Shown here one piece after another: positions 4,083-60,476 of a stretch of DNA of 64,000 nt (positions are counted from its first letter, which is position 1; each line of letters starts with the position of its first letter). Position numbers and translations under genes: made by a program. The notes beneath the pieces were generated by a model. It searched no databases. It was given only the letters and a program-made list of their open reading frames with translations, and was not told the DNA's origin. This DNA comes from Streptomyces sp. NBC_01142 (GTDB lineage Bacteria; Actinomycetota; Actinomycetes; Streptomycetales; Streptomycetaceae), in assembly GCF_026341125.1 (NCBI RefSeq), contig NZ_JAPEOR010000001.1, forward strand, positions 3,348,001 to 3,412,000, written 5' to 3'.

Positions 4083-4418
4083 GGGCAGAACCCCCCGGGC
4101 TACGGGCAAGAGCGTGAGGGCGAGGCTACCGTCGTGCAGAGGGTGTCAGCGGCCTGACACACGCCGGTCCTGGTCCGAGAACGAAATCTGCCGTGCGCCG
4201 CCGGAGCGACGAACAAGCGGCCGGAGCCGGTGAACACGGATGGCTTGTGATCTCCGATGTGGGGACAGCGCGACGCCGAAGGGGACGTCGGTGTCGTACG
4301 GCACTCAGGCCGGTCCGTCATTCCGACTGAGCAGCGCGCCGATTAATCACATGCGCCGCCCGGCAGGCTGCGCCCACACTGGCGTCCCGGATCACATCCA
4401 CCCGAAGGAACTCCACGC
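4083..4418. other. Divergent promoter region
   Basis: This 336-base gap lies between the divergent K+ channel and AAA+ genes. The ribosome site GAAGGA for the AAA+ gene lies at about 4404-4409. The only clear structure is the inverted repeat listed separately at 4143-4160. No gene is seen. Confidence 0.5.
4143..4160. promoter_or_regulatory. Perfect 7-bp inverted repeat, operator-like
   Basis: GTGTCAG and CTGACAC are exact inverse complements separated by CGGC. The element sits about 60 bases upstream of the K+ channel start and 260 bases upstream of the AAA+ gene. It could be an operator or a small hairpin in the channel's leader. No regulator can be assigned. Confidence 0.35.
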
Positions 4419-5480
4419 GTGCAGGCCTCCGTCACCGTCACTCCCGCCCGGATACCCGAGCTCCTCCTTGGTCTCGCCACCGTCCGGCCGGTGTTTCTCT
4501 GGGGCGCTCCCGGGATCGGGAAGTCCTCCCTGGTACGGAAGTTCGCCGAATCGCTCGGGCTTGAGTGCGTGAGTCTGCTCGGCACCCAGCTCGCCCCCGA
4601 AGACCTGATCGGCGTACCGCAGATCAGGGACGGGCGGTCGGTGTTCTGCCCGCCCGAGGCGATCGCCCGCGACGAGCCGTACTGCCTCTTCCTCGACGAG
4701 CTCAACGCCGCGACGCCCGATGTGCAGAAGGCGTTCTACTCGCTGATCCTCGACCGCCGGATCGGGAACTACGAGCTGCCCGCCGGCAGCATCGTCATCG
4801 GCGCCGGCAACCGTGCCACCGACAACGCGCTCGCACGGCCCATCGCCTCCGCACTCGTCAACCGGCTCACCCACGTTCATCTCACCGCGTCCCCCGCCGA
4901 CTGGATGGTGTGGGCCGGGGAGAACGGCATCCATCCCTGGGTGACCGACTATCTGACCGACCGGCCCGACCACCTCTGGTCGGCGCCGCCCAAGTCGGAG
5001 GAGCCGTTCTCCACCCCGCGCTCGTGGCACATGCTCTCCGACGCGCTGCACTCCTTCGGGCCGGCGCTCGACGAGGACACCCTCAAGGTGATCACTCACG
5101 GCACGCTGACGCCCGCGCACGCCGTCTCCTTCTGCGGCTACGCAAAGATCGTCCGTCACACCTTCGGCATCGAGGCGATCCTCAAGGGCGACGCGTCCTG
5201 GCCGCAGCGGATCGAGGACCGTGACCTGCTCTTCTACCTCGCCGAAGCCTTCCGCGGCCGGCTCGTCAAGGAGCTGCCCGCGAACAGGGAACACGTCTCG
5301 CCCTCCGTGCGGCAGATCGCCTACCGAGCCAAGTCGCTGCTCGTCCAGCTCGCCGAGATCTCCGTCGAGGTCGCCCAGACCGTCATCGCCGACGACTCCG
5401 ACGGACAGCCCGTACTGCCCGCCTGGTTCCTCATCGAAGCCGCGCGGGACATGCCGAGGCTCGTCGAGGCACGCCGGTGA
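4419..5480 (+). CDS. AAA+ ATPase, MoxR-like
   Basis: 353 residues, GTG start with GAAGGA nine bases upstream. Walker A is GAPGIGKSS (29-37), Walker B CLFLDELNAA (89-98), and sensor-1 Asn is in GAGNRATDN (128-136). MoxR-type AAA+ proteins act as chaperones that insert cofactors or remodel partners carrying VWA domains. The next gene, overlapping by four bases, encodes exactly such a VWA protein, so the pair almost certainly works together. The client is unknown; no metal enzyme or transporter gene is adjacent. Confidence 0.9.
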   Translation: MQASVTVTPARIPELLLGLATVRPVFLWGAPGIGKSSLVRKFAESLGLECVSLLGTQLAPEDLIGVPQIRDGRSVFCPPEAIARDEPYCLFLDELNAATPDVQKAFYSLILDRRIGNYELPAGSIVIGAGNRATDNALARPIASALVNRLTHVHLTASPADWMVWAGENGIHPWVTDYLTDRPDHLWSAPPKSEEPFSTPRSWHMLSDALHSFGPALDEDTLKVITHGTLTPAHAVSFCGYAKIVRHTFGIEAILKGDASWPQRIEDRDLLFYLAEAFRGRLVKELPANREHVSPSVRQIAYRAKSLLVQLAEISVEVAQTVIADDSDGQPVLPAWFLIEAARDMPRLVEARR

Positions 5481-55313: not shown

Positions 55314-56501
55314 GTGGCCGAGATCGTTCTCGAGGGCATCACCAAGAGGTATCCCGACGGTGCTCTGGCCGTGCGGGACGTCAACCTCACAGTGGACGAC
55401 GGGGAGTTCGTGATCCTGGTCGGCCCCTCCGGTTGCGGCAAGTCCACCACGCTCAACATGATCGCCGGGTTGGAGGACATCACCGAGGGCACCCTCCGCA
55501 TCGGCGACCAGGTGGTCAACGACAAGGCGCCCAAGGAACGCGACATCGCCATGGTCTTCCAGAGCTACGCCCTCTACCCGCACATGACCGTGCGCGACAA
55601 CATGGGCTTCGCACTGCGCCTGGCCAAGGCCGACAAGGCCACGATCCGGAGCAAGGTGGAGGAGGCCGCCCGTATCCTCGACCTGACGGAGCATCTGGAC
55701 CGCAAACCCGCGAACCTCTCGGGCGGCCAACGCCAGCGCGTCGCCATGGGCCGCGCCATCGTCCGCAGCCCCAAGGCGTTCCTGATGGACGAGCCGCTGT
55801 CCAACCTCGACGCCAAGCTCCGCGTCCAGATGCGCACCCAGATCTCCCGCCTCCAGCAGCGGCTGGGCACCACCACCGTCTACGTCACTCATGACCAGAC
55901 CGAGGCGATGACGCTCGGGGACCGCGTGGTCGTCATGCGCGGCGGCGTCGTTCAACAGGTCGGCACCCCGCAGCATCTCTACGACGAGCCACGCAACCTG
56001 TTCGTCGCCGGGTTCATCGGCTCACCCGCCATGAACTTCCTCCACTCCACCCTGGAGGAGAACGCTCTGCGCACCATCGTCGGTGACATCCCCCTGTCCG
56101 ACGACGTACGCCAGAGCCTGGAGCGCCACAACGCGCCCCGGGACCTCATCGTAGGCCTGCGGCCCGAAGCCTTCGAGGACGCCGCACTGGTCGATCCGGG
56201 CCGGCCGGGAACCACGTTCTCCACCACCGTGGACGTGGTGGAGTCGCTGGGCTCGGACGTCTACGCCTACTTCACCGAGGATGACTGGCAGCCGACCGCC
56301 ACCTCGGAACTGGCGGAGCTGGCCGCCGATTCCGGCCTCACTGAGACGGGAGCCAGCGGCCACCAGATCGTCGTCCGGCTCAGTACCGCGACGCGGATCG
56401 CCGAGGGGAGCCAGGCCGAGCTGTGGGTGGACACCTCGAGGGTCCATGTCTTCGACCCACGCACCGGTGCGAACCTCACTCACCGGGAGAACAACGGCTG
56501 A
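55314..56501 (+). CDS. Sugar ABC transporter ATPase (SugC/MsiK-like)
   Basis: 395 residues, GTG 55314 with AAGGAG upstream. Walker A GPSGCGKST, Q-loop VFQSYALYPHMTV, signature LSGGQRQRVAMG, Walker B AFLMDEPLSNLD and H-loop THDQTEAM are complete, followed by a C-terminal TOBE/regulatory region (~240-390). Many Streptomyces sugar importers lack an ATPase and borrow MsiK, so a dedicated one is of note. A 23-bp tandem duplication spans the stop. Confidence 0.93.
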   Translation: MAEIVLEGITKRYPDGALAVRDVNLTVDDGEFVILVGPSGCGKSTTLNMIAGLEDITEGTLRIGDQVVNDKAPKERDIAMVFQSYALYPHMTVRDNMGFALRLAKADKATIRSKVEEAARILDLTEHLDRKPANLSGGQRQRVAMGRAIVRSPKAFLMDEPLSNLDAKLRVQMRTQISRLQQRLGTTTVYVTHDQTEAMTLGDRVVVMRGGVVQQVGTPQHLYDEPRNLFVAGFIGSPAMNFLHSTLEENALRTIVGDIPLSDDVRQSLERHNAPRDLIVGLRPEAFEDAALVDPGRPGTTFSTTVDVVESLGSDVYAYFTEDDWQPTATSELAELAADSGLTETGASGHQIVVRLSTATRIAEGSQAELWVDTSRVHVFDPRTGANLTHRENNG

Positions 56502-56618: not shown

Positions 56619-56692
56619 CGCGGGGTGGAGCAGCTCGGTAGCTCGCTGGGCTCATAACCCAGAGGTCGCAGGTTCAAATCCTGTCCCCGCTA
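56619..56692 (+). tRNA. Initiator tRNA-Met (fMet, anticodon CAT)
   Basis: A 74-base cloverleaf. Acceptor CGCGGGG pairs with CCCCGC, leaving base 1 (C) unpaired with U72, the initiator-type mismatch. Anticodon stem CTGGG/CCCAG ends in three G:C pairs next to loop CTCATAA, with CAT at 56653-56655. T-arm GGTTCAAATCC is standard. No CCA is encoded. It is followed by a strong terminator. Confidence 0.95.
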
Positions 56693-56703
56693 CTCGCAGT
56701 GGA

Positions 56704-57366: not shown

Positions 57367-57633
57367 GCGAGCCCGTGGGTACGCCCACTCGCGTCTGAAG
57401 GGCTCGGCTGGAGACGGCGGGCGGGGCGGCTCTCTCTGCTGCCGCCGGCAGACGTGAGGCTACGGCCTGCTGCAGCTCGCCGGAGATCACCGCATCCGTT
57501 TCCGGGCCTCCAGATCGCCGGATGTCCCCATTCGCCGTCCTGGAATCGCGTCGTGTGGCGGCCGCGCCTACCGTCGAAGGGTGACGGGCCCTCGCGTCCC
57601 GCGGCGGCTCTGGGCTCGCGACAGGAGGATCCC

Positions 57634-58236
57634 GTGTCAGAAGCCGTTCGCCGCCCGCTGGTGCTGGACAGTCCGGAGTTCACAGCGAGGGCCGGGCATT
57701 TCGCCAGCCTGATGAGTGCCGGAGACTTCCAGGAGCGCTTCTTCCGGGACCCCGCCGCTGTGGCGGCGGAAGAGTTCGGGCTGTGCGTTGACACCGCAAC
57801 GCTGAGCCGGGCCAACCGTCTGACCTACGCACTGCTGGCAGACCCCGACTTCGCCACCTGGGCCGCGGACTTCCAGGCTCGCGTGCCTGCGACGCTGGCC
57901 TCGGGCGCCGAGGGCGTGCCGAGTCTCGCGGCGCTGCAGGCGGCGAAAGCTCAGCTGGTCCGGGAGTTCATCGACTCGGTGCAGGCACATCTCGATCCAG
58001 CGACCGTCGCTACTGTCCAGGACCTCGACCCGGGCACGGCTGTGGCGGAGGGCGATGCAGCCGTCGCCCCGACGGCCTTCATCGTCATTATCGTCATCAT
58101 CGTCGTTGTGGTCGTCGTGGCGGGCGTCGGGCAGGCCGACGGGGCCCTGTCGCGCAAGACGCTGCAACTGGTGATCAGGCAGCTCGACGAGCAACAGGCC
58201 GCCCAGATCGCCGCAGGGCGGGAGCTCAATGCATGA
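57634..58236 (+). CDS. Precursor-like protein with Ile/Val tract, partner of radical SAM enzyme
   Basis: 200 residues, GTG with CAGGAGG upstream. Residues ~30-55 (FQERFFRDPAAVAAEEFGL) resemble the conserved helix of nitrile-hydratase-type/Nif11-like RiPP leader peptides, with the DP and FG pattern. Residues 60-140 are helical and soluble. Residues 150-162 are 13 consecutive Ile or Val residues, flanked by TAF and AGVGQADG. A charged C-terminal helix follows. The tract may be a membrane span or a core peptide. The gene overlaps the radical SAM gene by eight bases, so the two are translated together. No known family is recognised; the leader likeness is my own pattern call. Confidence 0.6.
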   Translation: MSEAVRRPLVLDSPEFTARAGHFASLMSAGDFQERFFRDPAAVAAEEFGLCVDTATLSRANRLTYALLADPDFATWAADFQARVPATLASGAEGVPSLAALQAAKAQLVREFIDSVQAHLDPATVATVQDLDPGTAVAEGDAAVAPTAFIVIIVIIVVVVVVAGVGQADGALSRKTLQLVIRQLDEQQAAQIAAGRELNA

Positions 58237-59356
58237 GGACATCACCACCAACACCACCATCACCACCGACGCGGCTGCGCCGCACGGCGCTCTCGGGATC
58301 CTGGACCCTCTGCCTCAGCCGCGCGTTCTGTCCCTGCTGCTGACCTTGCGCTGCACGGCCGAGTGCGGGGAATGCGGCACCCACAGCAGCCCGCGGGTAC
58401 GGACAAGGCTGCCTGAGGAGGAAGCCGCCCGCCTCATCGACGAGGCGGCTGCCGACAGCTACAACCTGGTGGCTTTCACCGGCGGCGAGCCGATGCTCTA
58501 CGGCATCGGTCTCCGACGTCTGATCCAGCGCACGACAGACCATGCGATGCCCTCACGGATGGTGTCCAACGCCTTCTGGGCGCGTACGCCGGACAAGGCC
58601 GCTCGAGCGCTCGCCCCCCTCGCCGCTGCGGGCCTCGGGGAACTGAGTGTGTCGACCGGCGACGAGCACGCGCGCTTCGTGCCGGTCGAGCGGGTCCTGC
58701 ATGCCGTTCGCGCCGGTATCGACCGTGGCCTCAACTGTGCCGTGATGATCGAGACGAGGTCCGCGAACCGTGTGACCAGGCGCACGCTGTGCGAGCACCC
58801 CTTGTTCCGTGAGACCTTCACCCCGCGCGAGGAGGAGTCGATCACGTTCTGTGAGAGCCCGTGGATGCCGCTCGATGAGCATGAGCAGTATTCGTACCCC
58901 GACGGAATGACGGTCAACTCGGGCAACCTGTTCCGCCGGACCGGCTGCGACAGCGTCATCGACACGGTCACCGTCCTCGCGGATGGCCGGATCATGGCCT
59001 GTTGCGGCCTGGGCACCCAGGCGATCCCGGAGTTGCAGGTCGGCCATGTATCAACGGGTGGGGTGCACGAGAGTCGACTCCGGGCCGAGGCAGACTTTCT
59101 CAAACGGTGGATCCGGGACGAGGGCCCGGAACGGATCCTTGCCTGGGCGGCGGCGAGAGACCCGCGCATTGTCTGGGAAGACCAGTACGCGCATCGTTGC
59201 CAAGCGTGCAAGCGGCTCTACAGCGACCCTATGGTGGCCGATGCAGTCCGAGAACACTACGAAGAGAAGGTCCTGGACGTACTGACCAGCGAGTGGCTGA
59301 TGCACAGACCGTTGCAGCAGTCGTCGCGCGGGGAAGACGCAGCGATCGACACCTGA
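58229..59356 (+). CDS. Radical SAM enzyme with SPASM-like C-terminal cysteines
   Basis: 375 residues. The SAM cluster motif is LRCTAECGECG (C42, C46, C49), followed by AFTGGEPML. The auxiliary region carries C240, the pair C258-C259 in RIMACCGLG, and C324/C327 in HRCQACKRLY, a SPASM/twitch-type second iron-sulfur site. Such enzymes modify peptides (thioether, epimerisation, C-C crosslinks). The N-terminus is an odd Thr-rich string. Substrate is probably the upstream protein, with which it shares an operon. Confidence 0.88.
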   Translation: MHEDITTNTTITTDAAAPHGALGILDPLPQPRVLSLLLTLRCTAECGECGTHSSPRVRTRLPEEEAARLIDEAAADSYNLVAFTGGEPMLYGIGLRRLIQRTTDHAMPSRMVSNAFWARTPDKAARALAPLAAAGLGELSVSTGDEHARFVPVERVLHAVRAGIDRGLNCAVMIETRSANRVTRRTLCEHPLFRETFTPREEESITFCESPWMPLDEHEQYSYPDGMTVNSGNLFRRTGCDSVIDTVTVLADGRIMACCGLGTQAIPELQVGHVSTGGVHESRLRAEADFLKRWIRDEGPERILAWAAARDPRIVWEDQYAHRCQACKRLYSDPMVADAVREHYEEKVLDVLTSEWLMHRPLQQSSRGEDAAIDT

Positions 59357-59609: not shown

Positions 59610-60476
59610 GTGAGCGTGGGGGTTGATCAGCCGGTGTTGCGCATTGCCGACGGTCGTGGTGACGGAGCCGAAGAGGACCGTGGTGGCGAGGATGGGCTCG
59701 GCGTGGATGGTGAGCCGCCCACGAGGCATGGTGACGTCCGCGGGCGACAGCGTGCCGGGCTGTCCCGGTTCTTGCGCGGTGCGGGGCGCGTCCTGAGGGG
59801 GGAGTGGCAGGGAATCGTCGTCGCCCCCGTGCGGGAACTCTCGCGCCGGGGGGTGCGGGGAGTGTCCTTGGCGCTGCTGGCCACGTTCGCCGTGATCTTC
59901 CTCCACGAGATCCACCAGACGCCGAGGGGTGCGGTGGTGGTGCGACTGTTCGGTGAAGTACGCGGCGACTTGCCGCTCCCGCTGGCCCTGTTGCGGACTC
60001 CGGTGTCGTTGTTCGTTCCGGCCCTCGAACTGCCGGTATGGGCGGGTCTCCCGAAGCTGTTTCTCGCGTTCGCGCTGGCCGAACTGTCGCTCGGCCGTAC
60101 ACGGACCCTGATGATTGCGTATGGCACGACCCTGGCCGGCACGCTCAGTGCACGGGCGATGATCGGGCTCGGCCCGGGCGGTCTGGGGCTGCCGCCGGAA
60201 GCCGGGCAGGCACTCGACACAGGACCGTCCGCCGCGGTGGTGGGCCTGTTCACCTATCTCGCGGTCATCCGGCGCGCGCCCGTCCTGTTCGCGCTCACCG
60301 GTGGCTCGATGGTGCTGCAGTCGGTCAGCAATCCCAATCTGGCAGGTCGTGAACACCTGGTCGCGGTGGGCGTTGCGATCATTCTCGCCGTGCTGCACGA
60401 AAGGTTCCGAACCGGGCGCCTGACCGGGCGGATCCGATCCGTAGCGGGGAACCGGGATACCGAGGGCAGTCGATAG
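59610..60476 (+). CDS. Rhomboid-like membrane protein
   Basis: 288 residues in the longest frame (GTG start); the first ~45 residues look non-coding and the true start may be later. Six or so hydrophobic segments follow. DTGPSAAVVGLFTYLAV holds a Ser in the place of the rhomboid GxS motif, and GREHLVAVGVAIILAV holds a His in the last-helix position. Together they suggest an intramembrane serine protease of the rhomboid-like (Rhomboid_2) type. It is 253 bases downstream of the radical SAM gene, same strand. Confidence 0.55.
   Translation: MSVGVDQPVLRIADGRGDGAEEDRGGEDGLGVDGEPPTRHGDVRGRQRAGLSRFLRGAGRVLRGEWQGIVVAPVRELSRRGVRGVSLALLATFAVIFLHEIHQTPRGAVVVRLFGEVRGDLPLPLALLRTPVSLFVPALELPVWAGLPKLFLAFALAELSLGRTRTLMIAYGTTLAGTLSARAMIGLGPGGLGLPPEAGQALDTGPSAAVVGLFTYLAVIRRAPVLFALTGGSMVLQSVSNPNLAGREHLVAVGVAIILAVLHERFRTGRLTGRIRSVAGNRDTEGSR

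Follow-up and report, generated by a model that had tools for sequence, protein, structure and literature searches.

Within a 64,000-nucleotide stretch of Streptomyces sp. NBC_01142 DNA (contig NZ_JAPEOR010000001.1, positions 3,348,001 to 3,412,000; hereafter the window), two overlapping open reading frames (ORFs), ORF1 and ORF2, form a real, conserved EpeE-type cassette for a ribosomally synthesized and post-translationally modified peptide (RiPP). We put the probability at about two in three that ORF1 is a precursor composed of leader, core and tail, and ORF2 an EpeE-type radical S-adenosylmethionine (SAM) peptide epimerase. As judged from sequences and structure models, the case is carried by the pairing of the two genes, a leader that is conserved while the middle of the protein varies, the predicted EpeE fold and cysteine set of ORF2, and polytheonamide-like cores in relatives. 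We infer that ORF2 epimerises Ile and Val residues in a tract of ORF1, and conjecture that this tract alternates D and L residues and acts on membranes. The features of the pair are:

57634..58236, + strand: ORF1, proposed RiPP precursor, 200 amino acids (aa), GTG start (nine other proteins in a protein search)
57634..58017, + strand: leader-like N-terminal domain, residues 1-128 (mean pairwise identity 0.66, nine close homologues)
57745-57783, + strand: RDPAAVAAEEFGL, residues 38-50, within the leader (from the sequence)
58072..58134, + strand: proposed core, residues 147-167 (identity 0.43, gaps in 31 of 36 homologue pairs)
58081-58119, + strand: Ile/Val run IVIIVIIVVVVVV, residues 150-162, 13 aa (from the sequence)
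58135..58233, + strand: C-terminal tail ('follower') with the motif SRKTxQLVxRQL (conserved, identity 0.56)
58229..59356, + strand: ORF2, EpeE-type radical SAM enzyme, 375 aa, ATG start (sequence and model)
58352..58375, + strand: CxxxCxxC of the radical SAM cluster, C42/C46/C49 (invariant in 76 of 76 aligned rows)
58946..58948, + strand: C240, proposed auxiliary-cluster ligand (invariant in 76 rows; profile-aligned to an EpeE cysteine)
59000..59005, + strand: C258-C259, of which C259 aligns with EpeE Cys223 (alignments; invariant in 76 rows)
59198..59209, + strand: C324-x2-C327, proposed auxiliary-cluster ligands (alignments; invariant in 76 rows)

The eight-base overlap of the two frames, described in an earlier annotation made from the letters of this DNA (the sequence-only reading), is borne out by these coordinates. 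An AGGAGG stands at 57623-57628, 5' of the GTG start, and third-position G+C is 0.82 in both frames, which is compatible with coding sequence. Streptomyces roseoverticillatus (L002) carries both genes with the identical eight-base overlap and different neighbours, none of which reads as a transporter (by reading of the frames).

The run of 13 residues made up only of Ile and Val, also claimed in that reading, is the longest in the window (runners-up 7 and then 4, in stop-to-stop frames of at least 60 aa), and no run of 13 or more arose in 20,000 shuffles of the ORF1 protein. The protein search, in which 7,996 candidates were scored from a database of 5.8 billion sequences, returned nine other proteins, one of them a 132-aa fragment; a family profile search found 13 proteins in all, ORF1 included. 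ORF1 has no fitting Pfam or NCBIfam model and no match to the YydF family. Aligning the partners, as the sequence-only reading had proposed, gives the pattern expected of it: across nine close homologues, mean identity is 66% for the leader and 43% for the tract region, whose length varies; of the 36 pairs, 20 also have gaps in the leader and 14 have gaps in the tail. The segment singled out as leader-like lies inside the conserved N-terminal domain, and L9, P40, N61 and L68 are invariant across 17 partners. Models of the NHLP clan match four of these 17 weakly (four for TIGR04509, E 0.0012 at best, and four for NF038399, E 0.022 at best); the single bit score available, 18.8, is under the cut-off of 34, and ORF1 itself has no match.

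The only cysteine of ORF1, C51, lies in the leader and is missing from seven of eight other close homologues. The proposed core holds no Cys, its tract no Asn, and its sole aromatic residue is a Phe at the start; with no Cys in the core, thioether (sactipeptide) chemistry was rejected. A charged C-terminal helix had been claimed as well: a helix is indeed predicted at residues 174-199, but the ORF1 model is poor (mean predicted local distance difference test score 51.7) and, also where it draws the tract as a helix (146-166), unusable. A Protein Data Bank (PDB) search with the partner profile, A4, gave nothing at E 0.1.

Pairing holds in all 11 enzyme-bearing genomes of the Streptomyces and family surveys. 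ORF2-type enzymes occur in four of 392 Streptomyces genomes, the window's own included (E 1e-25 or better), in one of 296 genomes drawn from the phylum, again its own, in five of 394 genomes of the class, and, at E 1e-60 or better, in seven of 250 genomes from a single actinobacterial family. One of the five from the class reads as an epe-like operon (L038, 3318-5698: radical SAM enzyme, M50-like membrane protein and ATP-binding cassette (ABC) ATPase). Profile A4 matches in 10 of the 250 family genomes and in nine of 362 Streptomyces genomes, a draw slightly smaller than that for the enzyme, and the matched genomes include all seven and all four enzyme-bearing ones. In each of these 11 the partner lies directly upstream on the same strand, so that the conserved pairing for which the sequence-only reading had proposed a search is present; the A4 match is nearly full-length in nine, and the partners at L044 and L045 are short (127-129 aa), with the leader and part of the tail. 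As A4 was built partly from the paired loci, these counts show co-occurrence, not independent discovery. Taken with the leader and variable tract and with the EpeE-type enzyme, the 11 of 11 adjacency supports what had been proposed, a RiPP-like pair made up of a partner with a leader and a radical SAM enzyme that modifies peptides.

ORF2 carries C42-x3-C46-x2-C49 plus eight further cysteines, five of which (C240, C258, C259, C324 and C327) are invariant in alignments of 28 and 76 rows. The sequence-only reading was right about the radical SAM motif and the five cysteines, and its SPASM-like site can be refined: by alignment, the five match the auxiliary cluster and catalytic cysteine of EpeE, not a two-cluster SPASM site. 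C240 is shifted by a few columns in a small alignment with two YydG-like enzymes and aligned in the profile comparison. Sequence and model together point to an EpeE fold with the radical SAM, auxiliary-cluster and catalytic cysteines. In the available text of two studies, EpeE Cys223 is the proposed hydrogen-atom donor (PMC8326336, PMC5682303). Protein relatives of ORF2 number at least 245, the closest named one among the matches listed being from S. sioyaensis (88%).

In the mechanism we propose, ORF2 would cleave SAM at the C42/C46/C49 cluster and abstract C-alpha hydrogens from Ile and Val of the tract, and C259 would return hydrogen from the opposite face, yielding D-Val and D-allo-Ile. 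More speculatively, alternating D and L residues may let the tract fold as a beta-helix, which could act on membranes once released by proteases encoded elsewhere. Because epimerisation is mass-neutral, as stated in the part of PMC9259500 at hand, unchanged mass on co-expression would not refute modification.

Relatives of the pair carry different cores. The middle of the partner is Ile/Val in the window and S. roseoverticillatus, Ala/Val-rich on an S. canus plasmid and at L015 and L016, short at L036 and L037, and Thr/Ser-rich at L044 and L045. Outside Actinomycetes, a Val/Ala- or Asn-rich partner adjoins a related enzyme in Thermus, Eleftheria (downstream), Lactococcus, Enterococcus mundtii, Collinsella, Klebsiella sp., Halocatena and Tropicibacter; of these, Lactococcus and Enterococcus have short, less convincing tracts, and the Tropicibacter enzyme is very distant, found only with L038 as query. 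An RR-type N-terminus resembling a twin-arginine translocation (Tat) signal is read in the Thermus, Eleftheria, prophage and L043 partners, and not in ORF1.

The Thermus enzyme is 40% identical to ORF2 and groups with it in a 21-row clade (support 100/100) apart from YydG, in a tree whose root is arbitrary and several of whose branches are long; the Rhizobium, Halocatena and Tropicibacter enzymes fall outside. Against the actinobacterial profile, its partner's leader reaches 31.8 bits, and none of 550 shuffles exceeds 7.3. Asn residues fall on one parity in the cores of Thermus (16 of 16), Collinsella (13 of 14) and Klebsiella sp. (9 of 9), all with strong six-residue Asn spacing, by parity and lag-6 tests chosen after inspection of the sequences; N-x-N spacing alone is significant for Thermus only (2 of 20,000 shuffles, against 4,434 for Collinsella and 1,093 for Klebsiella sp.). 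PF05175-matching methyltransferases, mutually ~35-45% identical, occur at the Thermus, Collinsella, Klebsiella sp. and Rhizobium loci, PF09445 scoring slightly above PF05175 in Collinsella. The accessible passages on polytheonamides report that they carry an NX5N motif and that PoyE and AerE are PF05175 enzymes (PMC9259500), and that PoyE methylates Asn side chains, with Asn 16, 22 and 28 in a hydrogen-bonded chain along the beta-helix (PMC11285071). Because Asn parity and spacing and the methyltransferases parallel these features, the Thermus, Collinsella and Klebsiella sp. cassettes look like Asn-ladder D,L helices built with EpeE-type enzymes.

SdpI-family proteins lie near the Thermus and Klebsiella sp. 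pairs; this family is known to provide immunity against a membrane toxin. On the 14-kb Thermus aquaticus plasmid pTA14 (L008, 2599-6074), precursor and enzyme stand with an SdpI-family protein and the methyltransferase. Klebsiella sp. PL-2018 plasmid pmk4 (L020, 3865-10993) has precursor, SdpI, enzyme and methyltransferase, together with an HlyC-type acyltransferase, an HlyD-family adaptor and a peptidase-domain ABC transporter. In Collinsella aerofaciens (L019, 1-7176) the precursor, whose tail is DUF5969 (4240-4965), accompanies the enzyme and methyltransferase, and just upstream (1-1849), distinct from these, PqqD and radical SAM genes form another pair with a short ORF rich in Val and Ala. 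The Halocatena salina plasmid, which is archaeal (L021, 4440-6041), encodes a 177-aa protein with a C-terminal Ala/Val-rich stretch beside a distant EpeE-type enzyme. A distant member of the enzyme family also occurs on prophage contigs L024-L029; in the three loci read (L024, L025, L028), the downstream partner has a Tat-like RRKFIQSS signal and a Val/Ala tract. Enzyme and partner there adjoin phage tail-type genes as apparent cargo, and a transposase-like ORF interrupts the enzyme gene in L028. For the window locus phage cargo was rejected: the Thermus enzyme has no match in the phage collection, and prophage copies exist only for the distant relative.

The leader is also used beside a second enzyme. 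The remaining nine A4 matches, in nine genomes (L070-L078), one of which (G707) also has an ORF1-ORF2-type pair, align chiefly over the leader (about positions 12-156 of the profile). All nine genes lie directly upstream of an uncharacterised enzyme with the motif RPGYENxRxNxTxLYG, ~420-500 aa where the start is clear; the motif occurs in none of 11 ORF2-type enzyme loci tested. A PDB search with this enzyme (420 aa) gave no match, and a Pfam scan of four members left three without a match and one with TPR repeats only. Several cores are Thr/Gly repeats, an FkbM-type methyltransferase follows the enzyme in L071 and L072 (Pfam-confirmed in L072), and in each of L073 and L077 a further radical SAM frame matches weakly (E 1e-11 and 5e-6). 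These loci look like a second undescribed RiPP system. Homologues of ORF1 without an adjacent radical SAM gene had been named as grounds for refutation; they are found only among these leader-only genes, and since these adjoin another enzyme, they fit a shared RiPP leader and do not refute the pairing. One leader common to unrelated enzymes is typical of RiPP leaders.

Several observations weigh against an epimerase cassette. No modified residues have been observed, and no immunity gene, exporter or protease is recognised beside ORF1 and ORF2. ORF2 scores 63 bits against TIGR04078 (the YydG family), whose cut-off is 300, and EpeE D210 appears, from our reading of the profile alignment, to align to Thr in the ORF2 family. 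Some partners have a polar middle with no aliphatic run (L035, L046, L043); a core-bearing partner is lacking at the Prevotella L003 and Rhizobium L018 loci and was not seen at Prevotella L004, where the upstream side lies beyond the contig end; in Actinophytocola (L005) the enzyme gene is in pieces, and upstream of it lie two short frames with aliphatic runs. The enzymes of Klebsiella and Collinsella lie outside the well-supported clade of the window and Thermus enzymes, the parity and lag-6 tests on Asn are post hoc for all three cores, and leader homology in eight other non-Actinomycetes partners is at shuffle level (Eleftheria 6.7 bits, the rest lower or none); two Prevotella neighbours scored with the leader profile gave no match.

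That the tract is an ordinary all-L transmembrane anchor, with ORF2 modifying another part of ORF1, seems unlikely to us: its length and composition suit a membrane span, the poor model draws a helix there, and a charged tail follows, but tract length varies freely among homologues, related enzymes pair with partners that have no hydrophobic stretch (polar, Thr/Ser- or Asn-rich), and membrane anchors are seldom all Ile/Val. The low YydG score, the polar cores of some relatives and the lack of evident conservation of D210 would suit an EpeE-fold peptide modifier with other chemistry (C-C or C-O cross-linking, decarboxylation or backbone cleavage). We consider this quite improbable, given that ORF2 retains the EpeE cysteines, the Cys223 equivalent included, that the aliphatic core has no Cys and no aromatics except the initial Phe, and that NX5N-like cores of relatives suggest D,L alternation. 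It is very improbable that the pair is what is left, decayed or idle, of a larger cluster whose exporter and protease have disappeared. Such a loss would account for the lack of recognised transport and protease genes directly beside the pair and for the enzyme's rarity in Streptomyces (4 of 392), but neither frame is broken, and in S. roseoverticillatus the overlap is kept amid other neighbours.

A bolder version of the epimerase cassette seems to us less likely than not: a ribosomal counterpart of gramicidin, in which the EpeE-type epimerase would flip every second residue of the internal Ile/Val core to give a membrane-inserting D,L beta-helix of ~three turns. In Thermus the same clade and leader would then make an Asn-ladder helix, as would EpeE-type enzymes further removed in Klebsiella sp. 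and Collinsella, and the two-gene cassette would be the simplest version of a widespread class of D,L-helix RiPPs with an origin separate from PoyD proteusins.

The surroundings of the pair agree with the claim that no ABC exporter or peptidase adjoins it: none is recognised directly beside ORF1 and ORF2 (ORF reading and Pfam). Sugar-type ABC importer ORFs (by reading; Pfam confirms the solute-binding protein) end at 56501, ~1.1 kb upstream, and a tRNA-Met (CAT) lies at 56619-56693, ~940 bp upstream. Downstream, a 288-aa ORF (59610-60476) without a match in the Pfam scan reads as membrane-protein-like, and DNA similar to it is present in six of 14 genomes searched, the window's own included.

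To our knowledge, epimerase RiPPs form two groups: epipeptides, which are short and use EpeE, and proteusins, which are long and use PoyD; the two kinds of enzyme have no significant homology. In the ORF1-ORF2 family, enzymes of EpeE type go with long precursors that bear a leader and, in relatives, with polytheonamide-like cores, and the related cassettes suggest that a branch of D-amino-acid peptides made on ribosomes has gone undescribed. If so, D,L-helix peptides arose at least twice, and small cassettes could be used for testing iterative epimerisation of a nearly uniform substrate; the leader, found also beside an uncharacterised second enzyme, offers a handle for mining further RiPPs. 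No description of ORF1-ORF2-type pairing was found in the portions available of the open-licence literature, subscription journals lying outside that scope. Compared with known systems, the pair stands as follows:

(i) Epipeptides (EpeX/YydF with EpeE/YydG, Bacillus subtilis) share the enzyme fold, the two-cluster cysteine set and the catalytic Cys equivalent, and Val and Ile are their targets in the accounts available. ORF1, in contrast, has 200 aa and an internal core, against a YydF precursor of ~50 aa (51 in L047), and the pair has no adjacent epePAB-type protease and ABC genes, which L047 has. With these differences and a score below the TIGR04078 cut-off, classical epipeptide membership was rejected.

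(ii) Leaders of the NHLP/TIGR04509 type have N-terminal helices with a DP motif, as here, and a minority of partners match them weakly, unlike ORF1 itself.

(iii) Polytheonamide and aeronamide proteusins (PoyA-PoyD-PoyE) likewise have a long leader and, as regards the Thermus, Collinsella and Klebsiella sp. relatives only, NX5N-like cores and PF05175-matching methyltransferases. ORF2 is instead EpeE-type, and the window core is Asn-free and followed by a conserved tail. The PoyD-type epimerase has a single cluster according to the text available of PMC8326336. Classical proteusin membership was rejected on the EpeE-type second cysteine set and a core without NX5N, PoyD being contrasted by description only.

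(iv) Gramicidin A, unlike the proposed product, is made non-ribosomally; the likeness is conjecture, and the two would share the character of a short, Val-rich hydrophobic peptide if the tract alternates D and L residues.
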